Of a DNA stretch of 64,000 bases, positions 14,650 through 37,787 are shown piece by piece. A program made the position numbers and the translations under genes. The stretch's first letter is position 1. The number at the start of each line of letters is the position of its first letter. Under the pieces are notes generated by a model, which searched no databases, was not told the origin of the DNA, and saw only the letters and a program-made list of their open reading frames with translations. This DNA is from Acidobacteriaceae bacterium (lineage in GTDB: Bacteria; Acidobacteriota; Terriglobia; Terriglobales; Acidobacteriaceae). Where the stretch lies: positions 1-64,000 of the forward strand of contig PLHW01000069.1 of the NCBI GenBank assembly GCA_003139095.1, read 5' to 3'.

Positions 14650-14734
14650 AAATTAGCTTCGAGCTACGAGCCGCGAGCTTCGAGCGATCCGAGAGCAGCG
14701 CTCGTTATGACAGCTAAGTGCTTACAGCTAACGG
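14650..14734. repeat. Degenerate repeat patch between nuoJ and nuoK
   Basis: AGCTTCGAGCTACGAGCCGC, then GAGCTTCGAGCGATCCGAG, then CAGCTAAGTGCTTACAGCTA and ACGGCTAG. Same unit type as the other two nuo gaps, in at least four imperfect copies. Confidence 0.65.
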
Positions 14735-15343
14735 CTAGATCTTTTTCTTCGTCATAATTACTGCGCCCAGGATCGCTACTAACAGCAACAGCGAAGCGAT
14801 TTCGAAGGCGAAAGTGTATTGACCCATCTTGCCGGTTTCTCCGTAGAGGGCGGCGGCGATCTGCTGCGTATTGGTTCCTTCGGGCAACTGCACCATGCGA
14901 TCGAGAAAAAGCGATTTGCCTTTTTGGATCGCGGACATAAACAACGCGAGCAAGGCGCAGGAGGCCAGCAAGCCGACCGGCCAGATGCGGTTAAACTGGC
15001 GCTCTTTGGAGACGCGCTCGATGTTGACCAACATGATGACGAACAGAAAGAGCACCATGATTCCGCCGGCATAGACGATGATCTGGACGCCAGCGACGAA
15101 CGGGGCATAGAGCATCAGGTAGAGACCGGCGACGGAAAGCAACGTGACAATGAGCGACAACGCGGAATGAACGGCGTTGCGGCGCGTGATGACGAGCAGG
15201 CCGCTGATGACGGCGGCGGCGGCGAGGCCGTAAAAGAACCAGGGCGTCGCGATGGGGGCCGCGGGGTTCGGAGCCGAGTCGATGAAGGCGGCGGCCATTC
15301 GTGAGGGATGCGCGAGCGCGGGAATCACGAGGGCGGGATTCAT
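14735..15343 (-). CDS. nuoJ: NADH-quinone oxidoreductase subunit J
   Basis: Membrane subunit J of complex I, 202 residues, with the typical five-helix layout and the conserved third helix VQIIVYAGGIMVLFLFVIML. The open frame runs further upstream, but those residues are antisense-like; ATG 15343 overlaps the nuoH stop as ATGA and is the natural start. ATG 15298 (MAAAFIDS) is an alternative closer to the usual length of about 165-185. The ferredoxin-type subunit gene nuoI, which normally sits between nuoH and nuoJ, is missing. Confidence 0.92.
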   Translation of the reverse strand: MNPALVIPALAHPSRMAAAFIDSAPNPAAPIATPWFFYGLAAAAVISGLLVITRRNAVHSALSLIVTLLSVAGLYLMLYAPFVAGVQIIVYAGGIMVLFLFVIMLVNIERVSKERQFNRIWPVGLLASCALLALFMSAIQKGKSLFLDRMVQLPEGTNTQQIAAALYGETGKMGQYTFAFEIASLLLLVAILGAVIMTKKKI

Positions 15344-16644
15344 GAGACGAATACCCCCACGATGGCGGTGAGAATGAGCACGCCGAGAGAGATGGGGAGC
15401 ATGACCTTCCATCCGACTTTCATGAGTTGGTCGAAACGATAACGCGGCCAGGTGGCGCGATACCAGATGAAAAGGTACATGAAGATGGCGACCTTGAGCA
15501 TGAACCAATAAACGTAATCGATGCCTTCGCGGAAACGGGCGGCGATGCTGGCGTCGGGGTTGCGGCCGAGGATCGCGATGACGAAGAGCAGGAGCGCGAT
15601 GAAGGCGAGGAGAAGAGCGAAGACTGCGAGGCCGGCACGCTGAATTCTAAAGAAAGAATGCGAGGGCATGCGGACGGTGCCGATGACGGCAAAGAGCGCG
15701 AGGGCGCCGAAGGTAAGGCCGGGGAAGAGGGAGAAGATGAACTCCCACGCGGGGCCATTTAGTGCGTTCGGAAACGGGTGCAACCAGCCGCCGAGCCAGA
15801 GGGTGACGGCGATGGCGGAGACGGCGATCATGGCGGCGTATTCGGCGAGCATGAAGAGGGACCAGCGGAGGCCGCTGTATTCGGTGTGGAAGCCGGCGGT
15901 AAGTTCGGACTCGGCTTCGGCGAGATCGAAGGGCGAGCGGTTGGTTTCGGCGACCATGGCGATGGCGAAGATGACGAAGGCGATGAGGCCGAGCGGGAAA
16001 AATTTGAAGAGGAACCAGATACCTTGCTGCTGCTGGGCCTGGACGATGCCGATCATGCTGAGGGTGCCAGTGCCGGTGCGGTTGAGGCTCGTCATGAGGA
16101 TGGCGGAGACGACGGCGAGGCCCATGGCGACTTCGTAGGAGACCATCTGGGCGCTGGAGCGGAGAGCGCCGATGAGCGGGTAGTGAGAGTTGGAGGCCCA
16201 TCCGGCGGTGACGATGCCGAGCACGCCGAGCGATGAAACTCCCAACATGAAGAGTATTCCGATGTTCATGTCGCTGACGGCTTGAGATGGGCCAAAAGGA
16301 ATGACGGTGTAGACGGTAAAGGCAGCGACGAGGCCGATGAGAGGCGCGACCCAGAAGACGAGTTTGTCGGCTTCGTCGGGAATGATGTCTTCCTTCAGCA
16401 TGAGCTTGAGGGCGTCGGCGATGGGCTGAAGCAGGCCGTGGGGGCCGACGCGCATGGGGCCGAGGCGAATCTGAAAGTGGGCGAGGGCTTTGCGTTCGAT
16501 CCAGTTCATGCAGAGGACGACGACGGCAACACCGGCGAAGATGATGAGGACATAAATGAGCGCCCAGAGCTGATTGCCGGCATTGCCGGGAGGCAACGGG
16601 CTGCCGAGATAGGAAGTGAAGGCGTTGATGGTGGAGGTGAGCAT
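15340..16644 (-). CDS. nuoH: NADH-quinone oxidoreductase subunit H
   Basis: Membrane subunit H of complex I, which forms much of the quinone-binding channel; 434 residues, somewhat longer than the usual 325-400 because of an extended loop. Diagnostic sequences are RLGPMRVGPHGLLQPIADAL, LKEDIIPDEADK, and the Glu-rich loop ETNRSPFDLAEAESELTAGF next to the quinone site. Its ATG overlaps the nuoD stop by one base (TGATG), and its own stop overlaps nuoJ, so D-H-J are translationally coupled. Confidence 0.96.
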   Translation of the reverse strand: MLTSTINAFTSYLGSPLPPGNAGNQLWALIYVLIIFAGVAVVVLCMNWIERKALAHFQIRLGPMRVGPHGLLQPIADALKLMLKEDIIPDEADKLVFWVAPLIGLVAAFTVYTVIPFGPSQAVSDMNIGILFMLGVSSLGVLGIVTAGWASNSHYPLIGALRSSAQMVSYEVAMGLAVVSAILMTSLNRTGTGTLSMIGIVQAQQQQGIWFLFKFFPLGLIAFVIFAIAMVAETNRSPFDLAEAESELTAGFHTEYSGLRWSLFMLAEYAAMIAVSAIAVTLWLGGWLHPFPNALNGPAWEFIFSLFPGLTFGALALFAVIGTVRMPSHSFFRIQRAGLAVFALLLAFIALLLFVIAILGRNPDASIAARFREGIDYVYWFMLKVAIFMYLFIWYRATWPRYRFDQLMKVGWKVMLPISLGVLILTAIVGVFVS

Positions 16645-17843
16645 CAGCGGTCCACCTCGCCAAGGACGATGTCAAGAGTGCCGATGACGGCGACGACGTC
16701 GGCAACGAGCATGCCGCGAACCATAAGGTCGAGGGCCTGCAAGTTCACGAAGGAGGGCGGGCGGACGCGAAGGCGGTAGGGCTGAGTGGAGCCGTCGCTG
16801 ACGATGAAGTAGCCGAGCTCGCCTTTGGGAGCTTCGATGGAGTGATAGATTTCGCCGGGGGCGGGCTTGATGACCTTGGGGACCTTGGCCATGATGGGGC
16901 CTTCGGGGAGTCCGTTGATGGCCTGCTCGATGATGCGCAGGGATTGGCGCATCTCGATCATGCGGACGAGGTACCGGTCGTAGGTGTCGCCGTTTTCGCC
17001 GATGGGGATTTCGAAATCGAAGTCGGAATAGTTGGCGTAGGGGATGGCTTTGCGGATGTCCCACTTGACGCCGCTGGCGCGGAGAACGGGGCCGGTGACG
17101 CCGAGGGCGATGCAATCCTCGGCGGAGATGACGCCGACGTTTTTGGTGCGCTCGATCCAGATGCGATTGCCGGTGAGGAGGGTTTCGTATTCGTCGATTT
17201 TGGGCGGGAAGAAGGCGAGGAAATTCTTGACGTCTTTTTCGAAGCCGGCGTAGGTCTCATACTGGCAACCGCCGATGCGGAAGGCGTGGGTGGTGAGGCG
17301 GGCGCCGCAATACTTCTCGAAAATCTTGAGGATCTCTTCGCGATCGCGGAAGGTGTAGAAGAGGGGCGTCATGGCGCCGATGTCGAGGGCGTGGGTGCCG
17401 AGCCAGAGCTGGTGGCTGGCGATGCGGTTGAGCTCGGTGAGGATGACGCGGATGTAATTGGCGCGGGGCGGGGCTTCGACGTTGAGCAGCTTTTCGACGG
17501 CCTGACAGTAGCCGAGGCCGTTGGAGACGGCGGCGACGTAATCCATGCGGTCAACGTAGGGATTGAACATCGTATAGGTGCGGTTCTCGGCGATCTTCTC
17601 GACTCCGCGATGGAGGTAGCCGATGACGCACTCGGTGCCGAGAACCTTCTCGCCATCGAGCTTGAGGATGACGCGCAGGACGCCGTGAGTGGCGGGATGC
17701 TGCGGACCCATGTTGATGATGAGTTCGTTGGAATCGAGATAGGGATGCTCGGGCGTTTCGAGGTCGAGGTGGGAACTCGGGACCTGCGAGACGGCGTTGG
17801 GGAGCGTGTTGTCTTTCACATTCGCCATCGGCACGTCCGTCAT
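16644..17843 (-). CDS. nuoD: NADH-quinone oxidoreductase subunit D
   Basis: 49-kDa-type peripheral subunit of complex I, 399 residues, which lines the quinone head-group site. [36 protein letters not shown] and the C-terminal IVLGEVDR ending are all as expected. ATG 17843 was chosen because it overlaps the nuoC stop (ATGA); ATG 17828 is a second in-frame option. It is not fused to nuoC. Partner subunit NuoB, which carries cluster N2 facing NuoD, is not encoded in this window. Confidence 0.96.
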
Positions 17844-18538
17844 TGGCCACTCTCGATCCCGAGGTTGATTTGGACCCACTCTTTGTCTTGCAGGAGGATG
17901 TCGTAATCCTTGCGCAGGGGGAAACCCTTCCAGCCGTCGGGAAGGAGGATGCGCTTGAGATCGGGATGGCCGTCGAAAGTGATGCCGAACATGTCGTAGA
18001 CTTCGCGCTCGAGCCAGTTGGCGGTGGGCCAGATGGGGACGCTGGACGGGAGGGATTCACCGTCGGCGATTTGCGTTTTGACGCGCACGTGCTGGTTGCG
18101 CGGGAAGGAGTAGAGAATCCAGATTACGTCGAACTGCTTGTCGCGCTTGGGATAGTGGGCGGCGGTGAGATCGACGCAGTAGTCGAACTGCTCTTCATCG
18201 CGGAGGAGGCGGAGGAAGTCCGGGATGAGGGAGCGATCGACGGTGAAGTAGTTCTGGCCGAGATAGGTGAGAGCGTCGAGGCCGGAACCGTAACGGCTTT
18301 TGTACTTGTCGGCCATCGGTGAAGACCATGGTGTGGGCGCGGGAACGGGAGGCTTGGGCGGAGCCGCGGGCTTGGCGGGCGCAGCTGCGGCAGGCTTCGG
18401 AGCGGGCGCGGCTGGCTTCGGAACAGGCGGAGTTGCGGCGGGCTTAGCTTCAGTTGCGAGGGGAGCAGCTGGTTTATCGGTCAGCTGGGGATTCGCTTCC
18501 GGCGGGGTTGGAACGGGCGACTTGCTTTCCTCGGCCAT
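17840..18538 (-). CDS. nuoC: NADH-quinone oxidoreductase subunit C with Ala/Pro-rich N-terminal arm
   Basis: 30-kDa-type peripheral subunit of complex I, 232 residues. The conserved C-terminal signature is intact ([20 protein letters not shown] followed by RRILLPDGW-like residues). About the first 75 residues are an unusual arm made almost only of Ala, Pro, Lys and Val (repeats such as [19 protein letters not shown]), rather like the swinging linkers of lipoyl proteins. The catalytic-complex fold begins near [16 protein letters not shown]; the internal ATG in MADKYK is an alternative start that would remove the arm. It overlaps nuoD by four bases. Confidence 0.93.
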
Positions 18539-19683: not shown

Positions 19684-20622
19684 CTACGCTTTTAAGAATG
19701 AGGACCAGCGGAATTCCTTTACTGGACTCACTGCGGTTTGGGCTTTTTTTATGGCCATTTCTGCTACGGCGGGGACGATCCAATCGAAATTCTGCTGGCC
19801 TACGGAGGTGATTTCGGCGTCGGGGGCGGGGTTCATGAAGTCGATGGCGTAGGGGATGCCGCCTTCGACGGCGAACTCAACCGTGTTGAGGTCGTAGCCG
19901 AGGGCGCGGCATAGGGCGAGCGCGTCTTTCTCGATGCGCTCTTTCAGTTTTGGCGGGGGCGCGGGATTTCCTTTTACGTAGCGCTCATGGTGCGGGGCTT
20001 TCGGGTCGTACTTCATGATATGGACTTTTTCCTGGCCGACGACGTAGCAGCGGTAATAGTCCTCGAACTCGACACCGTGCTGGAGGGTCATGCAGAGGTC
20101 GCCGGTCTGGTTGTAATACTCGAAAAATTCTTCAGGGCTGTGGACTTTGTAGACGTGCTTCCACCCGCCGCCGGAGTAGGGCTTGAGAAATGCGGGAAAG
20201 CCGACGTAGGCGAAGAGTTCTTCCCAGTTGAGCGGGTAGATGAGATTGCGCATGGACTTGTCGGAGGTATCGGGCGGGTGGGTGTGATGCGGGAGGATGA
20301 CGGTGGGCGGGATGGCGACGCCCATTTTGTGGGCGAGGGCGTAGTTGAAAAATTTGTCGTCGGCGGTCCACCAGAAGGGATTGTTGATGACGATTGTGCC
20401 CTGGAGCATGGCGTTCTTGAGGTAGGCGCGATAGAAGGGGATGTCCTGGGAGATGCGGTCGATGATGACGTCGTATTTTTTGGGCTCATCCATGCGGATG
20501 CCGCCGATGTGGACGAATTCGGCGGTGATGCCGGGGATTTTCATGGAGTTGACTTTCTCGACGAGCGCGGGCGGGAAGGTGTTTTCCATGCCGAAGAGGA
20601 TGGCGATTTTTTTAGTGCTCAT
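19684..20622 (-). CDS. ATP-grasp (RimK-like) ligase-type protein
   Basis: A 312-residue cytoplasmic protein. The first 110 residues resemble the pre-ATP-grasp domain; the rest has ATP-grasp features: FLKPYSGGGWKHVYKV (phosphate-binding loop), a middle lysine region, and the metal-binding end YAIDFMNPAPDAE with conserved Asp and Asn. Such enzymes join a carboxylate to an amine or thiol; the substrate is unknown. A COG4947-type esterase gene lies 168 bases upstream on the same strand, a pairing that suggests a shared small-molecule pathway. The gap between them carries degenerate repeats. Confidence 0.8.
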   Translation of the reverse strand: MSTKKIAILFGMENTFPPALVEKVNSMKIPGITAEFVHIGGIRMDEPKKYDVIIDRISQDIPFYRAYLKNAMLQGTIVINNPFWWTADDKFFNYALAHKMGVAIPPTVILPHHTHPPDTSDKSMRNLIYPLNWEELFAYVGFPAFLKPYSGGGWKHVYKVHSPEEFFEYYNQTGDLCMTLQHGVEFEDYYRCYVVGQEKVHIMKYDPKAPHHERYVKGNPAPPPKLKERIEKDALALCRALGYDLNTVEFAVEGGIPYAIDFMNPAPDAEITSVGQQNFDWIVPAVAEMAIKKAQTAVSPVKEFRWSSFLKA

Positions 20623-21704: not shown

Positions 21705-24275
21705 TCAGAGGCCGGCGGCGGGGTGGCGGGGGTTGATGCCGAGTTGCTTGATTTTGGATTGGAGAGTGGTGCGTTTGAGGCCGAGGCGGGCGGCGGCGCC
21801 GCGGGGGCCGCTGATGAGGCCGCGGCTTTCCTTTAAGGCCTGCAGGATGTGGCGGCGCTCGATATTTTTCAGAGTGTCGTCGTCCTCGGGTTCCTGGGGC
21901 GAGGGGCTGGGCGAAACGGACTGCAACTCGCGGAGCGGGGCAGCGAGGACGGAGCCGGTGGTGAGGATGAGGGAGCGCTCGAGGAAATTTTCGAGTTCGC
22001 GGACATTGCCGGGCCAGTGCCACTGGACCAAGGCGTCCATGGTTTTGGCGGGGATGCTGGTGACGTTCTTGCGAATGCGCTTCGAGATCTTCCGAACGAA
22101 GTGCTCGACGAGTAAGGGAATGTCTTCACGCCGTTCGCGCAAAGGTGGGAGGAAGATGGGGAAAACGTTGAGGCGGTAAAACAAATCGCTGCGGAATTCG
22201 CGGTCGCGGACGCGCTGGGCGAGATCGCGGTTGGTGGCGGCGATGAGACGGAAATCGACGGTCAAGGTCTGGACGCCGCCGAGGCGCTCGAATTCATGAT
22301 CCTGGAGAACGCGCAGGAGCTTGGGCTGGAGATCGAGGGAGATCTCGCCGATTTCGTCGAGGAAGATGGTGCCTTTGTCGGCGAGTTCGAGGCGGCCGAT
22401 CTTTTTGCCGACGGCGCCGGTGAAGGCGCCTTTTTCGTTGCCGAAGAGCTCGCTTTCGAGGAGGCCGGAGGGGATGGCGGCGCAATTCATTTTGATGAAG
22501 GGATTGGCGGAGCGGCGACTGAGGCGGTGAATGGCGCGGGCGACGAGTTCTTTGCCGGTGCCGGTTTCGCCGAGGAGGAGGACGGTGGCGTCGCTGGAAG
22601 CGACTTTGCCGACGCTCTCCATGACGGCCATGAGGGCGGGGCTTTGTCCGACGATTTCGTCGAAGCCGAGGCCGGAGGTGATTTCGCGCTCGAGATAGAG
22701 TTTTTCCTCAGTCAGCTTTTCTTTGGCGAGACGGAGTTCTTCCTCGGTGCGTTTGCGATCGGTGATGTCGTAGTCAATGCCAATCATGCGGAGGGGCTTG
22801 CCGTCCGCATCATTGAAAACGCGCCAGCGGCCGGCGATCCAGTGGATGGCGCCATTGGGCCAGACGACGCGCCATTCTCCGTTGGCCTCGCCGGATTGCA
22901 TGGACTGTTCCAGGAGACGGGAAACCTGCGGGCGATCGTCGGGATGAATCAAATCGAGGAAATTTGAGATGGCGAGTGGGACATGGCCGGGAGGGATGCC
23001 GTAGAGGCGCTCCATTTGCGGCGTCCAGCGGCTCTCGCCGGTGAGGAAGTTGCGGTCATAAGCACCCATCTGGGCGACTTCCTGGGCGAGGAGGAGACGT
23101 TCTTCGCTTTGGCGGAGGGCGTCCTCGGCATGTTTACGATCGGTGATGTCGTGGGCGATGCCGAGGACGCTGACGACGTTACCGGTTTCGCTTTTCTCGG
23201 GGACGTGGCGAATGTCGAAGAAGCGCGGGCCGTGAGGGGTGGGAAGGCTGACCTCGATATGGTTGGATTCGCCGGTGGCGAGGGCCTGCTGAATGAGGCT
23301 GTCCAGCGTGGTCGCGAGGGCGGGATCGGGGAGTTGGGCGAGTTCGGGGAGTGTTCTGCCGAGATTCCGGGGTCCGCCGAAGAGTTTTTGCGCAGAGGGG
23401 CTGGAGAAAACAAGGCGGCAGTGGGCGTCGAAGCGGGCGATACAATCGGGGAGGTTTTCGATGAGAACGCGCAAGCTGCGCTCGGTTTCGCGGAGGGCTT
23501 CCTTGGCGCGCATGCGGTCGGTGATGTCGGTACCGGAGCCGATCCACTCGCGGAGGGTGCCGTCTTTTTCGAGCAGGGGGACGCCGCGGACGGCGATATG
23601 GCGGTAGTCGCCGGAGCGGGTGCGGACACGATGGACGCGTTCGTAGATGGCGCGGTTTTCGACGGCGTGCGACCAGACGCGGGCGGTTTCCTCGCGATCG
23701 TCGGGATGGATCATCTGGAGCCAGCCGGCGCCGCGGGCATCGTCGATGGGTTGGCCGGTGTATTCGGACCAGGAGGAAAGGTCGACGGCATCGGGGCCAG
23801 CCTGGAAAGTCCAGACGGTGTTGGCACTGGCGTGGACGAGGGAGCGATAGCGCTCCTCGCTGAGGCGGAGGGCATCTTCGGCGCGCTTGCGGTCGGTGAT
23901 GTCGTGCAAGACACAGGCGATACGGTCGACGCCGCTCGGTCCGTCGATGGGAAAGTAGGAGACGAACATGTGCCGGAGACCCAGGCCGGGATAGGGAAAA
24001 CTCATTTCGTATTGGACGACTTTGCCCGCGAAGGACTCATCCAGCTTTTTCTTGATGACGGTTTCAAAGATGTCATTATCGAGAAGGTCGGCAATGGAGC
24101 GCCCCAAGACATGCTCTTTGGGCAGGTCGCGGTGTTGAAGGTAGGCTCGATTGGCGAGGGCTACGCGATAATTGCGGTCGACGACGAGGATGAGTTCTGC
24201 CAAGCCTTCGACGACGCGTTCGTATTCGCGCTGGCGCTCTTCGGCGCGATTACGGTCGGCGATGTTGGGTGGCAA
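21705..24275 (-). CDS. PAS-domain sigma-54-dependent transcriptional activator
   Basis: An 856-residue activator. Four PAS sensor domains lie at about 20-130, 140-255, 265-385 and 390-510, each ending in a D-I-T-D-R-K-(R/H)-(A/T)-E-type linker. A short coiled coil leads to the AAA+ domain (about 545-780) with Walker A GETGTGKE, the sigma-54 contact loop GAFTGA and Walker B GTIFLDEIGE. A Fis-type HTH ends the protein (ILQALKESRGLISGPRGAAA, RLGLKRTTLQSKI). No membrane segment is visible. TTG 24275 is the likely start, with AGGGGAG 12 bases upstream. The first residues (NIADRNRAEERQREYE) are themselves a post-PAS linker, so the gene may have lost a front domain. Targets are unknown. Confidence 0.9.
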   Translation of the reverse strand: MPPNIADRNRAEERQREYERVVEGLAELILVVDRNYRVALANRAYLQHRDLPKEHVLGRSIADLLDNDIFETVIKKKLDESFAGKVVQYEMSFPYPGLGLRHMFVSYFPIDGPSGVDRIACVLHDITDRKRAEDALRLSEERYRSLVHASANTVWTFQAGPDAVDLSSWSEYTGQPIDDARGAGWLQMIHPDDREETARVWSHAVENRAIYERVHRVRTRSGDYRHIAVRGVPLLEKDGTLREWIGSGTDITDRMRAKEALRETERSLRVLIENLPDCIARFDAHCRLVFSSPSAQKLFGGPRNLGRTLPELAQLPDPALATTLDSLIQQALATGESNHIEVSLPTPHGPRFFDIRHVPEKSETGNVVSVLGIAHDITDRKHAEDALRQSEERLLLAQEVAQMGAYDRNFLTGESRWTPQMERLYGIPPGHVPLAISNFLDLIHPDDRPQVSRLLEQSMQSGEANGEWRVVWPNGAIHWIAGRWRVFNDADGKPLRMIGIDYDITDRKRTEEELRLAKEKLTEEKLYLEREITSGLGFDEIVGQSPALMAVMESVGKVASSDATVLLLGETGTGKELVARAIHRLSRRSANPFIKMNCAAIPSGLLESELFGNEKGAFTGAVGKKIGRLELADKGTIFLDEIGEISLDLQPKLLRVLQDHEFERLGGVQTLTVDFRLIAATNRDLAQRVRDREFRSDLFYRLNVFPIFLPPLRERREDIPLLVEHFVRKISKRIRKNVTSIPAKTMDALVQWHWPGNVRELENFLERSLILTTGSVLAAPLRELQSVSPSPSPQEPEDDDTLKNIERRHILQALKESRGLISGPRGAAARLGLKRTTLQSKIKQLGINPRHPAAGL

Positions 24276-24889: not shown

Positions 24890-27100
24890 ATGCATAAGCC
24901 GATCAAATATGTGGAGAAGGCGGTAACGGTAGCGGCAACGGGAGCGTGGGCGGTGTTTGAACGCCTGAACCGTGTGGCTCCGAATGCATCGCCGACGCCG
25001 AAATGGTCCGATAAGCCGCTGCTTAAGTCATGGGAGAAGTCGAAGCCGCCGCTCGGATGGCCGCGGACGACAGACTCGCTGTGCCCGCGGTGCGTGCCGG
25101 AGATCCGGCAGCAGATTCTGGACGGGCATCTGCCGGTTGACGTGCTGATGAATGAAAAGATCGGCGAGATTAAGGCGCAGATTGTGGAGAAGGACGGCAA
25201 GATCTGGATGGTGAAGGACTGCCCGAGGCACGGACACTTTGAAGATCTGATGTCGATTGACACGGAGTTCTCGCAGCACCTGGAAGAGGTTTTCCCGGGG
25301 CGCGATATTCGCGCGCACAACGACGAGAAGCTGCACCATCACGGAACTTCAACCGTGAAATATGGGCGCGGCGCGGTGCTGACGGTTGACCTGACGAACC
25401 GGTGCAACATGATGTGCGATCCGTGTTTTATGGACGCGAACCAGGTCGGGTACGTACACGAGTTGACCTGGGAAGAGATCAAGACGGTGCTGGACAACGC
25501 GATCACGGTGAAGCCGAAGCGGCAGATGTCAGTACAGTTCTCGGGCGGTGAGCCAACGCTTTCGCCGTACTTTCTGGATGCGGTGGCGTACGCGCGCAAA
25601 GTGGGTTACAACAGCGTGCAGGCGGCGACGAACGGGATTGAATTTGCGAAGAGTTTTGAGTTCTGCCAGCAAGCGGTTGAGGCGGGCATGCGGTACGCGT
25701 ACCTGCAGTTTGACGGAATCGGCAATGCGGCGAACTCGCATCGGGCGGTGGGCAACCTGTTTGACGTGAAGCTGAAGGCGATCGACAACCTGCACAAGGC
25801 GGGATGCGAGATTGTGCCGGTGATCACGATCGTGAACGGCATCAACAACGAGCAGGTCGGGCGGATCATTCAGTTCGCGCTGGATAATCCGAAGAAGATC
25901 GGATTTTTGAGCTTCCAACCGGTTTCGTTTACGGGGCGGGACGAGGCGATCACGGACGAGCGGCGCGAGGCGCAGCGTTACACGCTGGCACACCTGGCCC
26001 ACGACGTGAAGAATCAAACAGGCTTTGGAGTGCCGGCGCGCGACTGGTTTCCCATTAGCTTCATGAGCACGTTCTCAGACTGGGCGGATGTGCTGCACTC
26101 GCAGGATGCGAGCAACGACTGGGGACAGCTTTCGTGCGGATGCCATCCGAATTGCGGGACGGGGATGGCGATGATGATCGACAAGGAAACGAAGGAAGCG
26201 GTGCCGGTCACGGCGTTTCTGAAGGGCGATCAACTGGCCAAGGATATTTCCAAGGTCAACGATGCGGCGCGGTCGAAGTTCTGGACGGCATTTGGGATGG
26301 CGCTTTGTTTGATGAAGAACTACGACCCGTTCCAGTCGCCGACGCACTTCAAACTGATGGACCTGCTTCGGAAGTTCGATAAGAATTTCAATGCGACGGG
26401 CAAGAATTACGGCAAGGTTGGACCGGACCGGACGATCGACGACGTGATGAAGCGGCGGCAGGATCGGTGGAACTTTTTGTTCATTGCAGGCATGTGGTTC
26501 CAGGACCTGTTCAATTACGACTTCCGGCGGACGGAGCAGTGCATCATTCCGTATGCGACGCAGGAGGGCGAGATCAGCTTCTGCGCGTATAACACGGGCG
26601 TGGGCTGGCGGAACATTATTGAGAAGATGCACATGACGGCGACGCTCACGAAGTGGTATGAGGAGCACGGGCGGCATGAGATCTTCGCGGGCGGAAAGAA
26701 AGTGAGCCTGGAGGATGAGGAGCACGCGCTGTATCTGCGCGACACGCTCGTGACGAATGAAGTGCAGCACGACCTCGACAATCTGGGAATTGCGAAGACG
26801 GCGCGGGAAGAGAAGACGCGGGCGCGAGACGCGAAGCTGGCGGCGACGCAGGGCCAGGCGCGTGGGGCGGAGAAGAACGATCCGGCATACGACGCGCGCA
26901 TGGCACAGCTTTATCGCGAGGTGGTGCTGAAAGAGAAGGCGGCTGTTTCCAACGAAGGCGGATTTATTCCGCTGGGTGCGATTGCGCCGGCGAATGGGAA
27001 CGGGCACGGGAACGGCCACGGCCACAATGGCAATGGCCTGCACGGGATCAAGCCGGCGAAGCAGACGGAACAGATCGGCGAGCCGGTGGCGGGGGACTAA
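24890..27100 (+). CDS. Radical SAM protein of the tetraether / membrane-spanning lipid synthase type
   Basis: A 736-residue iron-sulfur enzyme. The radical SAM motif is C172-N-M-M-C176-D-P-C179, followed by GGEP (219-222) and YLQFDG. Ahead of it lies a metal-binding-type segment (SLCPRC, C65/C68, and CPRHGHF, C111/H114), and behind it further Cys clusters (SCGCHPNCG near 415-422; EQC near 550; ISFCAYN near 565). This set, with FCAYN after a Cys and the SLCPxC N-terminus, is what I know from the Tes family (archaeal tetraether synthase MJ0619) and related bacterial proteins that couple lipid tails. The last 35 residues are a Gly/Asn/His-rich tail. A clear terminator follows. A membrane-lipid role is inferred; the radical SAM assignment is firm. 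Confidence 0.85.
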   Translation: MHKPIKYVEKAVTVAATGAWAVFERLNRVAPNASPTPKWSDKPLLKSWEKSKPPLGWPRTTDSLCPRCVPEIRQQILDGHLPVDVLMNEKIGEIKAQIVEKDGKIWMVKDCPRHGHFEDLMSIDTEFSQHLEEVFPGRDIRAHNDEKLHHHGTSTVKYGRGAVLTVDLTNRCNMMCDPCFMDANQVGYVHELTWEEIKTVLDNAITVKPKRQMSVQFSGGEPTLSPYFLDAVAYARKVGYNSVQAATNGIEFAKSFEFCQQAVEAGMRYAYLQFDGIGNAANSHRAVGNLFDVKLKAIDNLHKAGCEIVPVITIVNGINNEQVGRIIQFALDNPKKIGFLSFQPVSFTGRDEAITDERREAQRYTLAHLAHDVKNQTGFGVPARDWFPISFMSTFSDWADVLHSQDASNDWGQLSCGCHPNCGTGMAMMIDKETKEAVPVTAFLKGDQLAKDISKVNDAARSKFWTAFGMALCLMKNYDPFQSPTHFKLMDLLRKFDKNFNATGKNYGKVGPDRTIDDVMKRRQDRWNFLFIAGMWFQDLFNYDFRRTEQCIIPYATQEGEISFCAYNTGVGWRNIIEKMHMTATLTKWYEEHGRHEIFAGGKKVSLEDEEHALYLRDTLVTNEVQHDLDNLGIAKTAREEKTRARDAKLAATQGQARGAEKNDPAYDARMAQLYREVVLKEKAAVSNEGGFIPLGAIAPANGNGHGNGHGHNGNGLHGIKPAKQTEQIGEPVAGD

Positions 27101-27144: not shown

Positions 27145-27170
27145 GGGCCGCTTTTCGGAGCGGCCCTTTT
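27145..27170 (+). terminator. Rho-independent terminator of the radical SAM gene
   Basis: GGGCCGC (27145-27151), 8-base loop, GCGGCCC (27160-27166), then TTTT. It lies 45 bases after the stop codon. Confidence 0.88.
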
Positions 27171-30310: not shown

Positions 30311-32755
30311 GTGGAACCTCTTACAAATCGCGTGGATGACAGAAGGACGCCGGTTGACGGCCGGCAGCCAGCCGACGGCAACTCGCCTGCTTCGGTTGGC
30401 GGAAACCAGCGCGCGCCCGTGACGCCAATCCCAGTGACGCGGCCCTCGTCGCCGGTGTATTGGCGGGTGGAGGGCAGCCTGCTGGAGTTGACGACGATCC
30501 GGCCAATCGCATTTTTCACGTGGAACAGCCAGACATTTATTGCGCGTTTTGTGCGCCGGAGCCTGGTGTTTTTGATGGCCATTTTGCGGCCCTTTTTGTA
30601 TGCGGCAAACCGGAAGGCGGCGACGCGGATTGTTCACGCCGTGCTGCGGGGGATTTCGCGGGACCGGCTGGATTCGCTGGGAGAAGAGGAGTTCGAGTAC
30701 AAACTGAAGCCGCTGCTGAAAGAAGAGGGAGTGCGGCATCTGAAGGCGTTGCAAGCCACCGGAGCGGACGTAGTGCTGGTGAGCCAGGGACTGGAGCACG
30801 TGATGCGGCCACTGGCGCGGCATTTGGGGGTGCGGTGGATCATCGCGAACCGGCTTGACTTTCGGGATGGGATCGCGACGGGGCGGCTGGTCGGTCCGAT
30901 CATCCGGCCGCGGGGAATTTTTGCGCGGATACGCGAGGCGGGACCGGATGGGCAGCAGAGTCCGGCGAGGTGGGTACGCGCGCTCGGGTTGCGCGGACCG
31001 AAGGCACTGGCGTCGGCGATTGTGCCGGCGGTGCGGGTAGAAAGGCCACGGGTGCGGCCGATTGTGTATTTTGACGAAACGCGGCATGCAGAGCGGCTTT
31101 CGGTGCGGAAGGCGCTCGCGGGAAAGCGGGTGATGCTGATCGGCGTTACGGGCTTTATCGGCAAGGTGTGGCTGGCGAACACGCTGCTGGATTTGCCGGA
31201 GATCGGGAAGCTGTACCTGCTGATTCGCCGACAGAAATCGAATCCGGCGCAGAAGCGATTTGAAAAGATGCTGGAGGATTCGCCGGTTTTCGATCCGGTG
31301 TTTGAGAAATACGGCGACCGGCTGGGCGCGCTGCTGGCCGAGAAGATTGAGGTGGTGGAGGGGGATGTATCGCAGCCGGCGATTGGTTTGGAGGCGGAGG
31401 TTGCGGCGCGGCTGAGCGGTGAACTCGACCTCATTATTAATAGCTCGGGGCTGACGGATTTTAATCCCGACCTGCGGGATGCGGTGGCGGTGAATGTGGA
31501 CTCGACGTATCACCTGATCGAATTTATTCGGGGATCGGCGCATGCGGCGATGCTGCATCTTTCGACGTGCTATGTGGCGGGGCAGCGCGATGGGCGAGTG
31601 AGCGAGCGGGTGCGGCCGAACTACACGCCGGCGGGGGTTGCGGACTTCGATGCGGACAGGGAATGGCGCGAGCTACGCGATTTTCTGGAAGCGGCGGAGA
31701 AGCGCGCGGAGGGCGTGGAGGTAACCGAGGAGTTGACGAGGCAAGCGCTCGAGAAAGAGCATGCGGCGAAAGGACTGAGCGGGCATGCGCTGGAAAACCA
31801 GATTCGCAAGAACCGCGTGCGCTGGCTGAAGAATTATCTGACCGAAGAGGGCATGCGGCGTGCGAAGGAACTGGGCTGGCCGAATACCTACACATATACG
31901 AAAAGTCTGGCGGAGTCGCTGATCGCGAAATATGGAGCGGGGCTGCCGATTGCGATTGTGCGGCCGGCGATCGTGGAGACGTCGGTGGCGAAGCCGTTCC
32001 GGGGATGGAATGAGGGAATCAACACGTCAGCGTCGCTGTCATATTTGCTGGGAACATCATTCCGGCAACTGCCGTCGAACGAACGGAAGCGGCTGGACAT
32101 TATTCCGGTGGATGCGGTTTGCGCGGGGATGACGCTGATTGCGGCGGCGCTGGTGGAGCGGCGGCACGATCCCCTGTACCAGTTGGCGACCTCGGTGACG
32201 AATCCGTGCGACATGGGGCGGTCGATTGAACTGACGACGCTGGCGCATCGGCGTCACTATCGCGCGCAGGAGGGGCTGGAATACTGGCTGCGGCTGCGGA
32301 TGGACGCGATTTCGGTTTCGAAGACGCGGTACAACCGGATGTCGGCGCCGGCGCAGAAGGCGATTGTGCGAACGATTCAAACGATCATGTCTCCGCTGCC
32401 GGTGAAGAAGCCGCTGGCGAAGGCAGAACGAAATCTGGAGCGGGTGGAGAAACTGATCGAATTGTTCGAGCCATTCATTCTGCACAACGAGCATGACTTT
32501 GTGGCGGACAATGTGGAGAAGCTGTCGCAGGCGCTGGCGCCGGAGGAGCGGGAAATTTTTGGCTACGATGCGGCGGGACTGGATTGGTGGGAGTACTGGA
32601 TCGACATTCACATTCCCGCGTTGCGGCGGTGGACGTATCCGCTGATTGAGGGAAGGCCGCTGGAGGCGCGCGAGCCGCGCGTGCTGCAAATGCCGGCGGC
32701 GAAAAACGGCGCGATGAATACGGGGACAAACGGAGCGACGTGGCGATATTCCTGA
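30311..32755 (+). CDS. Fatty acyl reductase with degenerate HAD-like N-terminal domain
   Basis: An 814-residue two-domain protein. Residues about 45-230 look like a HAD-IB phosphatase fold ([19 protein letters not shown] and a TGRLVGPI ending), but the catalytic D-x-D-G-T motif reads RVEGSLL, so the nucleophile is gone. Residues about 270-690 are a fatty acyl-CoA/ACP reductase: Rossmann loop [29 protein letters not shown], and the Y-x3-K pair in YTYTKSLAE near 527, with VRPAIVETS after it. Such reductases make fatty aldehydes or alcohols from acyl thioesters. The GTG 30311 start is uncertain; GTG 30419 is an in-frame option. It overlaps the next reductase gene by 16 bases. Confidence 0.85.
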
Positions 32756-33879
32756 CCGGAGCGACCGGCTACATCGGCGCGCATGTTGCAGCAAATCTGC
32801 TGAGCCAGCACGATGCAATGTTGAATGTGCTGGTGCGCGCGCGCGATACGCGCGAGGCGGAGTTGCGTTTGTGGGAGGCTCTGCAACTGCATTTGCCGTT
32901 TCCGGCGTTTTACGAATTTCTTCAGGCAAAGATACGGATTTTTCGGGGCGACCTGACGGCGCCGCAGTTTGGACTGGAGCGCGCGGATTACGATCGACTG
33001 GTGCACACGACGGATTCGGTGATTCATTGTGCGGCATCGCTGAACCGGAAATCGGAAAAGGCATGCTTGAACGTGAACCTGCGCGGGACGCTGGAAGTGG
33101 TGCAACTGGCGCGGCAATCGCAGTACTATCACGGGCTGCGGCGGTTTTCGAACGTCAGCACGGTGGCCGTGGCGGGTAAGCGGAGCCACGAAATTGTGAC
33201 GGAGGACCGGTCGATCGATTGGGATCGGTCGGACTACGATCCTTACGCGCGGACGAAAAAATTCTGCGAGCACATGGTGCGGCAGTTGATGAGGGATGTG
33301 CCGCTGACGATTTTTCGTCCGAGCATCGTGCTGGGAGACAGCCGGTATCCGGAGACGACGCAGTTCGACATGGTGCGGTCGTTCGTGTTTCTGGCGGGGC
33401 TGCCGGTGCTGCCGTTCCGGCCGAACGACAAGATCGACATCGTGAACGTGGATTTTGTGGCGGACGCGATTTCGACATTGCACATGAAGGAAAATCCGGC
33501 GCACGACACGTATCATCTTTCTTCGGGCGCCGATTCGCAGACATTCCGGCAATTGACGACGGCGCTGGCGAAGGCGCGGAACAAGCGCGGGCCGGTGTTC
33601 TTGCCGGTGCTGGAGGTTCCGTTCACGGGTGCCGTGAATGTGCTGGCGAAGCGCAAGGGACAAGTTGGATTTGGGGCAGCGTTGATGAAAGTATTTTTGC
33701 CATATTTAACGTGGAACACGGTTTTTGATAATTCGCGGGTGACGCAAGAACTGGGAAGAAAGCCGGTGGCATTTTCCGAGTACAGCCTGCCGCTGCTGCG
33801 GTTCAGCCGGGCACACAATTTCACGTATCCGTACCAGGAGTGGCCGAGCGGCGCGAAGGCGGGAGGTTCGGCGGCATGA
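32740..33879 (+). CDS. Thioester-reductase-like SDR protein
   Basis: A 379-residue NAD(P)-binding protein of the extended SDR family. Rossmann motif [14 protein letters not shown] at the N-terminus, NVSTVAVAG, the catalytic Y-x3-K pair in YARTKKF (about 169-173) and [10 protein letters not shown] are all of the thioester-reductase/male-sterility type. A GTG start at 32740 overlaps the upstream reductase by 16 bases and its stop overlaps the next ATG (ATGA), so it is firmly in the operon. A reaction on a lipid or carrier-bound acyl chain is likely from context, but the exact substrate is open. Confidence 0.85.
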
Positions 33880-35285
33880 TGGACTTTGTGTTGGAGGCGT
33901 GGGTTTCGGGGATCATCGAAGGCAAAAAGTTGCAATGGATGATGGGGCGCGGCGCGCCGTGGCAGGCGGGTGAGAAATTGAAACTGCTGTTCGCAGGCTA
34001 CAACGGCACGCGCAACACCGGCTCGGACGTGCGAGTGGAGGAGATGCTGCGGCAGGTGCGGCGAATCCTGGGGCCGGAGCACGTGGAACTTACGATGATG
34101 ACGTTTAACTTCGATCGATCGCGCGGGTATTTCGAAGGGACATCGCAAGTGCGGCTGCCGGATATTTTCCCGCCATTTTTGGCGAACGAGGTGCCGAAGC
34201 ATCATGGCGTTGTGGCGTGCGAAGGGTCGATGTTCAAATCGAAATTCGCGAACGCGCTGGCGACAATGATGATTGGGTCGCTGGGGATTGCGGCGGCGGA
34301 GAACAAATTGTCAATCGGCTACGGGGCGGAGGCGGGCGCAATGGATCCGCTGGTGGCGAAAATGTGTGGGCGATACTGCAAGGATTCGCTGGTGATCACG
34401 CGCAATGAAGAGTCGCGAAAAATATTGCGGGAACTGGGTGTGCCCACCGAATTAGGCACGGACACCGCCTGGACATTTGAGCCGCTGGGCGCGGAGTACG
34501 GGCAGAAGGCGCTGCGTGATGTGGGATGGGACGGGAGGACGCCGGTGCTGGCGGTTTGTCCGATCAATCCATTTGAGTGGCCGGTGAAGGCGTCGCTGGC
34601 GAAGGCGGCGTTGCACAGCGTGGCGGGTGCGTATAAGGAGAGTCATTATCGGGGGCCGTACTTTCACAATGCGGGGCCGGCGGCGGACCGGGCTTACGAA
34701 CATTATTTGGGGTCGATTGCGCGGGCGGTCGCGGCGTTTCGACAGAAGCGAAATGTGTTTGTGATCATGGTGGCGACCGAGAGGCTGGATGCGCGACCGT
34801 GCAAGCGAATTGCGGAACAACTGGGCGGCGCGCCCGTGCTGACGTCAGAAGATTACAACATGTACGAACTGGTGAGCATTTTGCGGACGTGCCGGATGAT
34901 CGTTTCGTCGCGCTATCACGGGATCGTGACGTCGATGCCGGCGCTGGTGCCGTCGGCGGGAATTACGATGGACGAACGGATCCGGAATCTGATGAACGAA
35001 CGCGGCCACCCGGAGCTGCTGATGAATGTAGACGATCCGGACCTGGAGGCGCGGACTTTGTCGGCGCTGGAGACACTGGAGCGCGACGGAGAGCGGATTG
35101 CCGACGGCATTGGGCGCACAGTGGTGCGCAATTTGAAATTGATGGCGCGTATGGGCGTGTATTTCGAAGAGGAAGTGCAGAGGCGTTATGCGGAGTTTCC
35201 GACGCGGCGGGGAGAGTGGAGTTGGGAAGACTATCTGCCGCCGATGAGTGAAGGGCTGCGGGGATTGGTAGAGGCGTACAGTTAA
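33876..35285 (+). CDS. Polysaccharide pyruvyl transferase-family protein
   Basis: A 469-residue protein with the PF04230 (CsaB-like) fold: [20 protein letters not shown] at the N-terminus, then LAVCPINPF, and near the C-terminus [19 protein letters not shown] with the expected Arg-Tyr-His-Gly. Family members move pyruvate from phosphoenolpyruvate to a sugar, or act as glycosyltransferase-like enzymes. ATG 33876 was chosen over GTG 33840 because it overlaps the upstream stop (ATGA). Its place among lipid genes suggests a head-group modification, which is inference only. Confidence 0.82.
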
Positions 35286-35316
35286 TCGGCGCGAAGACGA
35301 GGACTCCACGGTCACG

Positions 35317-36987
35317 GTGCAAATCAACGAAATGCAATTTCTTGAGCAAATTTTTGCGAACCTCGCGCAGAACGGCGACGCGGTCGTGGTGCAGGAAATG
35401 CGCGGCGACCAGACGATCCCGTGGACAGCACAACAGTTGCTGAGCCAGGTGCGGATAGCGCGCGCGTACCTGCGGCGGCTGCGGCTGAAGAAGGGCGATC
35501 GCTGCGCGCTGCTAGCGAACAACTCCGTGCAATGGGTGGCAATGGACCTGGCGATTATGGCGGAGGGGTTGATCGCGGTGCCGCTGTATGCGCGGCAGGC
35601 GCCGGGCGAACTGGTGGCGATGATGAAGGACTGCTGGCCGTCGGTGATCGCTTGCGGAGAGCAGTCGCTGGGCGAGGCGATTGTGCAGGAGTGGCCGGAG
35701 GCGCCGCCGTTTTTCACGTTCGAGAATGTTTTTGTGGCAGGACGTGAGCCCGCGGAGACGCCTTTGCCGGCGATGGCGGAAGGCGATGTGGTGGCAATCA
35801 TCTATACGTCGGGGACGTCGGGCGAGGCGAAAGGCGTGATGCTGAACGCGGCGAACGTCGGCCACATGCTGGGTTGCACGTCGGGGCGACTCGACCAACT
35901 GATGAAGCGACGGGGGGGACAGGATGCGGTTTTCCATTATTTACCGCTTTGCTTTGCCGGTTCGTGGATCATGCTGCTAACTTGTCTGCTGCGCCGGAGT
36001 CGGCTAAGTCTGAACACCGATCTTGGCAAGATTGCCGGTGACATGCGGGCGGCGGCGCCGGACTATTTTCTGAACGTGCCGGCTTTGCTCGAACGCATGC
36101 GCAAGGCGGTGGACGAACAACTTTGGAAGACGGGCGGCGTGGCGCTGAAAATCTACCGGAAGGCGAAGGGCGCGTGGGCGCGAAAACATTATGGAACGTC
36201 GTGCGCGACGGATCGAATTTGGCTGGTGCTAGCGAACCGGATGGTGTTTCCGACGATCCGGAAAAAGATGATCGGGCCCGGTCTGCGAGCGCTGATCAGT
36301 GGCTCGGCGCCGCTGAACGTGGACACGCAACTCTTTTTTATGATGCTGGGAATTCCGGTGCTGCAGGTGTACGGGCTGACGGAGACGACGGCGATCTGCA
36401 CGATGGACGATCCGGATGGCAAGGTGATTCCGGGGCGGACGGGGCCGGCGATTCCGGGAATTGAGATGAAGCTGGCGGAGAATGAAGAGATCATCGTGCG
36501 CGGGGCGAATATTTTTCCGGGATACTGGCAGCGCAAAGAGGCAACGGAAAAAGTGCTGCGCGACGGCTGGTTTTACACGGGCGATCAGGGCGAAGTGGAT
36601 GCCAGCGGAAACTGGAAGATCGTGGGGCGAATCAAGAATCTGATCATTTTGGGATCGGGACACAATATTGCGCCCGAGCCGATTGAAGATCAGGTGCTGC
36701 AACAGTTGCCGGAAGCGAACCAGGTCGTGCTGGTGGGCAACGGGAAGGGATACCTGACGGCGCTGATCACGGGAAAGGTAAGCGGCGAGAAGGCGCAACA
36801 GGCGCTCGGTCTGGTGAATGCCGACCTGCCTCACTACAAACAGATTCGCGCGTTCCACCTGGTGGAGGAGCCGTTCACGATCGAGAGCGGGTTGCTGACG
36901 GCGAATGGGAAACTGAAGCGGGATTCAATTGCGCAATGCTATCGCGAGGAGATCGCGGCGATGTACGCTGCGGCGGCACCGGCATGA
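35317..36987 (+). CDS. Long-chain fatty acid-CoA (or -ACP) ligase, AMP-binding
   Basis: A 556-residue adenylating enzyme that activates fatty acids with ATP. The motifs are IIYTSGTSGEAKGVML (A3, about 163-176), YGLTETTAI (A5), WFYTGDQGEVDASGNWKIVG (A7) and the catalytic Lys region ANGKLKRDSI (A10). The layout matches the long-chain (FadD15-like) group. GTG 35317 is used; ATG 35332 (MQFLEQIF) is an alternative. Its stop overlaps the enoyl-CoA hydratase start (ATGA). It could load the acyl carrier protein gene 0.9 kb downstream. Confidence 0.92.
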   Translation: MQINEMQFLEQIFANLAQNGDAVVVQEMRGDQTIPWTAQQLLSQVRIARAYLRRLRLKKGDRCALLANNSVQWVAMDLAIMAEGLIAVPLYARQAPGELVAMMKDCWPSVIACGEQSLGEAIVQEWPEAPPFFTFENVFVAGREPAETPLPAMAEGDVVAIIYTSGTSGEAKGVMLNAANVGHMLGCTSGRLDQLMKRRGGQDAVFHYLPLCFAGSWIMLLTCLLRRSRLSLNTDLGKIAGDMRAAAPDYFLNVPALLERMRKAVDEQLWKTGGVALKIYRKAKGAWARKHYGTSCATDRIWLVLANRMVFPTIRKKMIGPGLRALISGSAPLNVDTQLFFMMLGIPVLQVYGLTETTAICTMDDPDGKVIPGRTGPAIPGIEMKLAENEEIIVRGANIFPGYWQRKEATEKVLRDGWFYTGDQGEVDASGNWKIVGRIKNLIILGSGHNIAPEPIEDQVLQQLPEANQVVLVGNGKGYLTALITGKVSGEKAQQALGLVNADLPHYKQIRAFHLVEEPFTIESGLLTANGKLKRDSIAQCYREEIAAMYAAAAPA

Positions 36988-37787
36988 CCGAGCACAAAGG
37001 AGAGATGTTGTCGTGGCAAATCGTAAACGGCGCGATCGAGTTGGGGCTGCATCGCGAGCCGTGCAACGAGATCGGCTCGGCGATGCTGGAGGAGTTGGAG
37101 CAGTTTGCGGGAGCGTTGCCGGAGCTAATGAAGGGGGCGCATGCGCTCATTCTCCATTCGGCGAGGCCGGCGGGCTTTTGCGCGGGCGCCGATTTGCGCG
37201 AGCTCTACCAACGGGCGCGCGGCATGGAAAAGGCGGAGGCATTGCGCGGGGTGCGCGATTTTCTGGAGCGCATCCATCATGTGATGAACGCGATCGACGC
37301 GCTTCCGCTGACGACGATTGCAGCGGTGCATGGAGTGACCTTTGGCGGAGGCTTCGAACTGGCGCTGGTTTGCGACATTATTATTGCGGACCGGATGACG
37401 CGATTCTGCTTTCCGGAGTTGCGGCTGGGACTGATCCCGGGGTTTGGGGGGATTCCGCGGCTGAAGCGGGATTTGGGCAATGCGGTGGTTCGAGATTTGC
37501 TGCTGACGGGGCGCGGCTTTAATGTGATGAAGGCGCAGCAGATCGGATTGGTGAGCCAGATTGCCGCCGAAGGCGAGGCGCTGCGAGTGGCGCGCGCTAC
37601 GGCGAGCCAGGTGGGAAAGTTCGATCGGGCGACGACGGCGGCGGCGAAGAAATTTGTGAAGCCGATTCCGTATGAAGAGTTGAAGCAGGAGATCGACATT
37701 TTTTGCGACTTGTATGCGCAGCCCGCCGTCGAAGAGGGTTTGCGGAGGTTTGTGGAGAACGAGGGGCCGCAGCCGTATCTGCCGTGA
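36984..37787 (+). CDS. Enoyl-CoA hydratase/isomerase family protein
   Basis: A 267-residue crotonase-fold protein. The oxyanion-hole segments are SARPAGFCAGADLRELYQ and HGVTFGGGFELALVCD, followed by FPELRLGLIPGFGGIPRL. The first catalytic Glu of hydratases is present (GGFELAL), the second position after FPELRLGL is not an obvious Glu, so a hydratase, isomerase or hydrolase activity remains open. ATG 36984 overlaps the ligase stop; ATG 37005 lies too close to its own ribosome site. It belongs to the lipid cluster by coupling. Confidence 0.88.
   Translation: MTEHKGEMLSWQIVNGAIELGLHREPCNEIGSAMLEELEQFAGALPELMKGAHALILHSARPAGFCAGADLRELYQRARGMEKAEALRGVRDFLERIHHVMNAIDALPLTTIAAVHGVTFGGGFELALVCDIIIADRMTRFCFPELRLGLIPGFGGIPRLKRDLGNAVVRDLLLTGRGFNVMKAQQIGLVSQIAAEGEALRVARATASQVGKFDRATTAAAKKFVKPIPYEELKQEIDIFCDLYAQPAVEEGLRRFVENEGPQPYLP

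Follow-up and report, generated by a model that had tools for sequence, protein, structure and literature searches.

An acidobacterial clade of the tetraether synthase family without the [Fe4S4]N ligands, a probable lipid tail-coupling enzyme of iso-diabolic acid synthesis

The stretch of DNA analysed here, called the window, consists of the 64,000 nucleotides at positions 1 to 64,000 of contig PLHW01000069.1 (assembly GCA_003139095.1) from an Acidobacteriaceae bacterium, and it carries on its forward strand a gene for a radical S-adenosylmethionine (SAM) protein related to the archaeal tetraether synthase (Tes). The gene is intact, with an ATG start, a TAA stop and zero internal stops. Comparison with 11 relatives gives ratios of nonsynonymous to synonymous substitution rates (dN/dS) of 0.024-0.159, which are rough because dS exceeds 1 in all 11. 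Pfam recognizes Radical_SAM (3.4e-18) and Zn_ribbon_HMPTM (1.5e-14) in the 736-residue protein. A preliminary description, made from the DNA letters alone, had taken the product for an enzyme joining lipid tails, of the Tes type or of the type of the bacterial membrane-spanning lipid synthase (Mss). Features of the gene, the protein and the surroundings are presented in Table 1.

Table 1. Features of the Tes-like gene, its product and its surroundings in the window
Feature	Position	Strand	Basis or remark
Radical SAM Tes-like protein gene (P0001)	24890..27100	+	open frame, 736 aa
N-terminal helix, residues 3-28	24896..24973	+	AlphaFold2 helix H3-28, predicted local distance difference test (pLDDT) blocks 90-97
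Rubredoxin-like domain, residues 58-122	25061..25255	+	Pfam Zn_ribbon_HMPTM 58-122; alignment
Residues 145-160 (HHHGTS...), place of the Tes [Fe4S4]N motif	25322..25369	+	three Cys absent
Radical SAM CX3CX2C, Cys172/Cys176/Cys179	25403..25426	+	alignment
FQPVSFTGR loop with Gln343, Ser346, Arg350	25913..25939	+	Gln268/Ser271/Arg275 of MJ0619
C416-x-C418-x3-C422	26135..26155	+	Cys422 aligns with Cys338 of MJ0619
Met535	26492..26494	+	aligns with the labile Met439 ligand of [Fe4S4]C
Cys551, Tyr555, Cys565	26540..26584	+	Cys455, Tyr459, Cys470 of MJ0619
Gly/Asn/His-rich tail, residues 685-736, predicted disordered	26942..27097	+	AlphaFold2 pLDDT <50
Terminator-like hairpin followed by TTTT	27145..27166	+	9 pairs, 7 GC; directly 3' of the stop
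Lipid cluster	30311-41018	+	fatty acyl reductase (FAR) with HAD domain, short-chain dehydrogenase/reductase (SDR), pyruvyl-transferase-like protein, two acyl-AMP ligases, enoyl-CoA hydratase, lipid kinase

The profile search that the preliminary description had proposed returned Tes (NF045702) as the best NCBIfam model for the window protein (4.3e-95; 319.2 bits, or 318.5 bits in a six-frame search), but with a score under the curated cut-off of 450 bits. The score with TrsS (NF045646) is 208.2 bits, under the cut-off of 490 bits for that family, and all of the other NCBIfam matches among the best 25 of 40, including several SPASM maturases, lie below their own cut-offs and below the Tes score. 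Pfam finds in the protein no SPASM domain, the domain of peptide maturases and Gms, at 1e-3. The closest sequence in the PDB is the Tes of Methanocaldococcus jannaschii (MJ0619; 7tol/7tom), with an E-value of 3.7e-60 and 26-27% identity, and the next solved relative is MoaA with 3.9e-6; an unrelated radical SAM enzyme as the closest characterised homologue, which the preliminary description had named as the result that would speak against it, was not seen. AlphaFold2 modelling, from an alignment of 58 sequences taken from the window and from fetched homologous loci, gave a structure with a pLDDT of 86.5 and a predicted template modelling (TM) score of 0.84. A Foldseek search with this model retrieved 7tom (7.3e-35, TM 0.84 by target) and 7tol (9.3e-34, TM 0.87 by target, root mean square deviation of superposition 3.6 A) in a match that covers the Tes chain, and MoaA as the third chain (4.5e-8, TM 0.52); the model thus has the overall fold of Tes. 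In the host genome (5.53 Mb in 75 contigs, 98.13% complete) the window gene is the sole strong Tes-family match. Seven further matches, none above 57.7 bits with the Tes model, comprise MoaA and PqqE (both over their NCBIfam cut-offs), one heme-b-synthase-like and one SPASM-like protein, and three proteins with no NCBIfam match at 1e-25.

According to the published account of its structure, MJ0619 holds four metal sites, namely a rubredoxin-like iron bound by C9, C12, C33 and H36, a surface cluster ([Fe4S4]N) with C73, C77, C80 and a histidine as ligands, the radical SAM (RS) cluster, and a C-terminal cluster ([Fe4S4]C) with the labile ligand Met439 near the lipid tips (PMC9433317). The same account describes a loop of Gln268, Ser271 and Arg275 that closes on 5'-deoxyadenosine (5'-dAH), and a Tyr459 that is strictly conserved among archaeal homologues and non-essential in vitro (PMC9433317). 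We aligned MJ0619 with 41 of the 110 proteins of the window protein's clade (hereafter W; frames shorter than 400 residues excluded), with 33 acidobacterial Tes proteins scoring over the cut-off (T; 30 distinct, three being repeats) and with 10 proteins of a lower-scoring group (S; nine distinct, one being a repeat), which gave 85 rows with 81 distinct sequences. Two S proteins that were scanned score best with TrsS.

The motifs listed in the preliminary description are all present: SLCPRC (Cys65/68), CPRHGHF (Cys111/His114), CNMMCDPC (Cys172/176/179), C-G-C-x3-C (Cys416/418/422) and EQC...FCAYN (Cys551 and Cys565), the last of which had loosely been placed near the end of a protein that continues for about 170 residues after it. 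Conservation of these residues is beyond chance, each occurring in 40 or 41 of the 41 W rows, as is the Tes match (4.3e-95). Cys65, Cys68, Cys111 and His114 align with C9, C12, C33 and H36 of the rubredoxin-like CX2C...CX2H site in 40 of the 41 rows (one gap), with a spacing of 42 residues between Cys68 and Cys111 as compared to 20 in MJ0619. The three RS cysteines are likewise found in 40 of 41 rows with one gap, and each residue of the 5'-dAH loop (Gln343, Ser346, Arg350) in 41 of 41. In the C-domain, Cys422 is retained in all 41 W rows, and Cys551, Tyr555 and Cys565 each in 40 of 41 (one gap) and in all 33 T rows, which also share the cysteine of the Cys422 column with MJ0619. The column of Met535 holds methionine in 40 of 41 W rows (one gap), in 33 of 33 T rows and in two of 10 S rows; the last C-domain cysteine, in the Cys565 column, is present in only three of 10 S rows. 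Cys422, Cys551 and Cys565, the counterparts of C338, C455 and C470, are presumed from this conservation to be the ligands of [Fe4S4]C in the window protein.

The arrangement of cysteines fits MJ0619 at the rubredoxin-like, RS and C-domain sites, but the motif of [Fe4S4]N is absent. None of the 41 aligned W rows has any of the three cysteines that correspond to C73, C77 and C80, which are retained in all 33 T rows (30 distinct). A CX3CX2C motif within 60 residues upstream of the RS motif was found in none of the 107 readable W proteins (of 110), in 33 of 33 T proteins and in nine of the nine readable S proteins (of 10). Structure prediction with mapping of cysteines had also been proposed earlier; the predicted model has the Tes fold, and the cysteines, mapped by alignment, include those of the C-domain but not those of [Fe4S4]N. 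The second difference is the presence, next to the presumed ligand Cys422, of Cys416 and Cys418, which are extra with respect to MJ0619; among the W rows Cys416 occurs in 41 of 41 and Cys418 in 40 of 41 (one serine). Position 418 is a cysteine in 28 of 33 T rows, and the full C-x-C-x3-C motif occurs in one of the 33. Since the T proteins nearest to W carry parts of this motif (L115 both Cys416 and Cys418, L117 the first only), it may predate the loss of [Fe4S4]N. Further differences from MJ0619 are the longer rubredoxin loop, a helix added at the N-terminus, and some 146 residues outside the stretch matched to Tes.

W forms a single clade nested within the Tes family, with an approximate likelihood-ratio support (SH-aLRT) of 100 in both of our trees, the first built from the aligned rows and the second with 21 W rows and with four S rows (L147, L153, L153b, L156) excluded. 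Both trees come from quick searches with SH-aLRT as the sole support measure, and the archaeal placement is unsure because MJ0619 and L115 stand on branches flagged as long. The branches nearest to W are the T proteins L115, L117 and L118, all of which have the [Fe4S4]N motif; T proteins share 28-36% identity with the window protein (12 compared). They are the same family and probably correspond to the Koribacter/Solibacter type of Zeng 2022. Two shorter Tes homologues from the host's order, here called Y-type (L164:1168-2679 (+), a 504-aa frame, 346 bits with the Tes model; L165:1263-2795 (-), a 511-aa frame), also have no [Fe4S4]N CX3CX2C motif and retain the C-domain motifs. Because W and the Y-type stand on separate branches, the motif appears on these trees to have been lost at least twice. 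L162:988-2547 (+) and L163:1240-2913 (-) represent another family, in which both auxiliary cysteine motifs are present; L162, from the host's own genus, scores almost equally with Tes and TrsS (335 and 331 bits), and this family could be Mss-like. We regard the window protein as a distinct clade nested inside the Tes family and not as Tes itself, because the curated cut-off and the defining cluster were both tested, and the score lies below the one and the ligands of the other, [Fe4S4]N, are missing. The earlier Tes/MSS label is to be split, the protein lying within the Tes family.

Members of the clade are widespread in the host's order. A scan of named genomes gave at least 594 matching stretches, 589 of them relatives, and among the matches listed the 80 retained stretches all have acidobacterial titles with 72-91% identity, 57 belonging to Terriglobia among the 58 whose class is stated. 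The Tes model matches 211 of 396 Acidobacteriota genomes at 1e-40, 34 of them over the cut-off. When 17 low scorers were searched again, eight had S-type matches only, as judged by score and length; hence up to 169 Acidobacteriota genomes have a W-type best match. In the order itself, 191 of 199 genomes have a Tes-family match at 1e-60, with 21 over the cut-off and 170 with a best match below it. Among the matches listed, these lower best matches mostly score 315-336 bits in frames of about 640-850 aa and are W-like; the exceptions include G465, where the Tes is partial, and G517 and G541, whose best matches are of the Y-type. When the window protein was searched against plasmids, 23 of 72,556 records contained radical SAM matches, all of them remote and below 80% coverage.

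Outside the conserved core, the N-terminal helix has a high hydrophobic moment, equalled in 11 of 5000 shuffles, and could be a membrane-surface anchor. The Gly/Asn/His-rich tail that had struck the preliminary description is real and makes up the final 52 residues of the C-terminal extension. A candidate for the gene's own terminator is the terminator-like hairpin of Table 1; its weight comes from its position just 3' of the stop and not from the count of such sites, as four were observed in the region against 3.1 expected from shuffles. Scans of the 64-kb window for tRNA genes and Rfam families gave no match.

The lipid gene cluster is where it had been described, 3.2 kb downstream of the Tes-like gene, with genes for a chromate transporter, a GNAT acetyltransferase and a DinB-family protein in between. 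As support for the function it fails, since a homologue of its first gene lies downstream in eight of 112 loci of W genes, and the commonest neighbour family of these genes occurs in 14 of 112; the counts are lower bounds, with at least 5 kb on both sides in 57 of the 112 loci and a few places duplicated. The FAR, SDR, AMP-ligase and lipid-kinase genes of the cluster recall parts of the myxobacterial elb ether-lipid operon as described in PMC9131029, but not its multidomain ElbD, and the seven window proteins scanned include neither an acyltransferase nor an acyl carrier protein. On the other side of the Tes-like gene, about 0.6 kb upstream and divergent, lies the gene of an 856-aa PAS/sigma-54 activator (21705-24275, minus strand), found upstream in one of 112 loci. 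A 312-aa protein without a Pfam match is encoded at 19684-20622 (minus strand) and lies upstream in four of 112 loci at about 80% identity, and genes for subunits of complex I (NADH dehydrogenase), of which four were scanned, run along 12079-18538 (minus strand).

Among the matches listed, nine genomes have both a W-type protein and T (assigned by score and frame). In five of them (G067, G111, G253, G486, G536; loci L134, L135, L136, L160, L161) the two genes are adjacent on the same strand, about 0.2-6 kb apart with the W-type gene first, and in the other four they are on different contigs. It is possible that the adjacent pairs work in one pathway. Contig 47 of the host encodes a single Ger/PlsA-like protein of 1205 aa (L159:2887-6504, minus strand) with two BcrAD_BadFG stretches and DUF2229, which is the make-up described for ester-to-ether reductases (PMC13274423). 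Two simple rules were tried on 50 of 108 genomes, leaving aside 45 that lack a Tes-family match and 13 that have one, the types being assigned by score. The first, that the W-type enzyme always accompanies an ester-to-ether enzyme, is unsupported, as DUF2229 occurs in 11 of 34 W-type-only genomes and in seven of 16 genomes with only a cut-off-passing Tes. The second, that aerobic life of the hosts explains the loss of [Fe4S4]N, is not supported as a simple rule: COX1 is present in 31 of the 34 and in 12 of the 16, respectively, and in six of six genomes of the near branch f5, yet the two proteins read there (L117, L118) retain the motif.

The lipid that such an enzyme could make is abundant in cultured relatives of the host. 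Iso-diabolic acid is reported at 20-40% in 17 cultures of acidobacterial subdivisions 1 and 3 and, in a survey of 46 strains, in subdivisions 1, 3, 4 and 6 of seven (PMC13274423). It is given as 11.8-30.4% in six Edaphobacter strains, for which glycerol ethers are reported as not detected (PMC11354219), as 26.8-49.2% in Occallatibacter and relatives (PMC12935467), and as one of the primary fatty acids of Chloracidobacterium (PMC12816986). For the producer Edaphobacter aggregans a single Tes homologue is listed, with 32% identity and 4e-61 to a Methanosarcina Tes, and for Koribacter and Solibacter homologues of 42% and 40% (1e-149 and 1e-139; PMC8941075). Our searches against MJ0619 gave 3.7e-60 for the window protein and 2.1e-152 for a cut-off-passing acidobacterial Tes (L090), so that the window protein and T would fall at the Edaphobacter and the Koribacter/Solibacter levels, respectively, the published values having been obtained with another query and program. 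Zeng et al. describe the tips of iso-acyl and isoprenoid chains as structurally identical (PMC8941075), and acidobacterial Tes homologues have already been proposed to act on lipids of the branched glycerol dialkyl glycerol tetraether (brGDGT) type by Zeng 2022 (PMC8941075) and Halamka 2022 (PMC10087280). The pathway to brGDGTs is termed largely unknown in a 2025 paper (PMC12042123). As far as our searches of the open-access literature go, what is new is that the acidobacterial homologues form at least two families, of which the commoner lacks the [Fe4S4]N ligands and keeps the presumed catalytic site.

Taken together, the window protein belongs to an acidobacterial branch of the tetraether synthase family that probably couples lipid tails, with iso-diabolic acid units as the likeliest product. 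The preliminary proposal of a Tes-type tail-joining enzyme is well supported by sequence, predicted fold, site conservation, phylogeny and distribution, and loses the support of the lipid cluster and a full cysteine fit to MJ0619. With Tes (also known as GDGT-MAS) the protein shares the fold, the rubredoxin-like site, the RS cluster, the C-domain cysteines, the labile methionine and the tyrosine equivalent to Tyr459. Lloyd et al. 2022 gave evidence that a carbon-sulfur intermediate forms on a cluster of MJ0619, and crystals of the archaeal Tes are described with bacterial phospholipids bound (PMC9433317). For the window enzyme we infer the substrate, product, intermediate and electron supply. 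It would bind two phospholipids whose tails are iso-C15 acyl (or alkyl) chains, cleave SAM at the Cys172/176/179 cluster and take a hydrogen atom from the isopropyl end of one chain. The tail radical could then be held through a C-S bond at the C-terminal [Fe4S4] (Cys422/551/565, Met535) until a second SAM generates a second tail radical and the two tips are joined into a C30 membrane-spanning chain. Electrons would have to reach the site without [Fe4S4]N, perhaps via the rubredoxin-like site. We lean, with less assurance, towards the fuller hypothesis that the clade is the iso-diabolic acid synthase of Acidobacteria, a descendant of Tes that couples iso-C15 chains in ester linkage and has one [Fe4S4] cluster less than the archaeal enzyme, with Cys416/418 altering how the catalytic cluster is held.

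A Tes-family enzyme could instead act on another C-H bond of the lipid, in C5/C6 methylation of iso-diabolic acid, in brGDGT ring formation or in an intramolecular cross-link, with the tails coupled by a different enzyme. The rings (GrsA/B) and cross-links (Gms) of archaeal tetraethers are described as the work of radical SAM enzymes (PMC11186832), the absent [Fe4S4]N and the extra Cys416/418 could mean an altered reaction, and a cut-off-passing Tes beside the W gene in some genomes would allow labour to be divided there. We nevertheless find this unlikely, because the C-domain site with its methionine and tyrosine, which is tied to coupling in Tes, has been retained; GrsA/B are thought to have the RS cluster only and Gms is described as a SPASM protein (PMC11186832), a domain that Pfam does not find here; and with a cut-off-passing Tes in only 21 of the 199 genomes of the order, another coupling enzyme would have to be assumed in the others.

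Rather improbable, in our estimate, is a brGDGT synthase proper, which would couple ether lipids after ester reduction by a Ger/PlsA-type enzyme, as proposed for Solibacter. The host does encode such a protein and diether coupling by Tes homologues has been proposed (Halamka 2022, PMC10087280), but DUF2229 accompanies the W type in only about a third of the genomes sampled, and the Edaphobacter strains are rich in iso-diabolic acid with no glycerol ethers reported (PMC11354219). It may also be that this is only another order of steps in the same pathway as iso-diabolic acid synthesis by coupling of acyl tails.

The coupling of tails by a separate Mss of the Thermotoga/Bacillota type, encoded elsewhere in the genome, would leave another lipid role to the window protein, and to this we give a slim chance. 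Mss was reportedly found by Sahonero-Canavesi in 2022, and that work may bear on Acidobacteria. By description, Mss of Thermotoga maritima and Bacillota couples acyl tails and shares the catalytic architecture of Tes (PMC13274423, PMC11604127); experiments in E. coli are reported to have confirmed it (PMC11604127), and Bacillota that have it make iso-diabolic acid (PMC13274423). Homologues are reported in 11 of 97 acidobacterial metagenome-assembled genomes (MAGs) from the Black Sea (PMC11868695), which is far rarer than iso-diabolic acid among cultured strains of subdivisions 1 and 3. The host's other Tes-model matches, weak as they are, include MoaA, PqqE and a heme-b-synthase-like protein among the seven, Mss itself not having been searched for. 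The genome of T. maritima, used as a control, has no match to the Tes model at 1e-40, compared with about 1e-95 for the window protein, a comparison that reaches Mss only indirectly. Finally, a radical SAM enzyme with no role in lipids, for instance a TrsS-like protein or a peptide maturase, is suggested by weaker matches to TrsS and to several SPASM maturases and is very improbable, given that these fall below their cut-offs and below the Tes score, that Pfam finds no SPASM domain, that no neighbour is conserved and that the fold match covers the Tes chain.

Several observations weigh against tail coupling to iso-diabolic acid by the W clade. To the score under the equivalog cut-off, the missing [Fe4S4]N cysteines and a genomic context that had to be rejected as evidence can be added Arg210 of MJ0619, a 5'-dAH contact, whose aligned column is arginine in 33 of 33 T rows and mostly Lys, His or Gly in W; Arg285 of the window protein is adjacent to this column. 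Eight of the 199 genomes of the order have no match at 1e-60, and the gene and the lipid were matched at the level of groups, not strain by strain between producers and non-producers. Solibacter usitatus is reported to have two Tes homologues and no detectable iso-diabolic acid (PMC10087280). Since Mss makes membrane-spanning lipids elsewhere and has homologues in the Black Sea MAGs, another enzyme could do the job. The function of bacterial Tes homologues was stated to be unconfirmed in 2025 (PMC11868695), and we found no functional test of an acidobacterial one in the open-access literature, subscription papers and preprints being outside this coverage.

Both brGDGTs and their building block iso-diabolic acid underlie widely used proxies of temperature and pH in soils and lakes. 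With a candidate that is conserved so widely and whose presumed catalytic site is intact, there is a single gene to delete or to express. A clade that naturally lacks [Fe4S4]N also offers a ready test of which metal sites, among the four of Tes, are required for joining two unactivated carbons. If the clade is indeed the acidobacterial iso-diabolic acid synthase, sp3-sp3 coupling would not require the surface [Fe4S4]N cluster; that two separate branches have lost this cluster points the same way.

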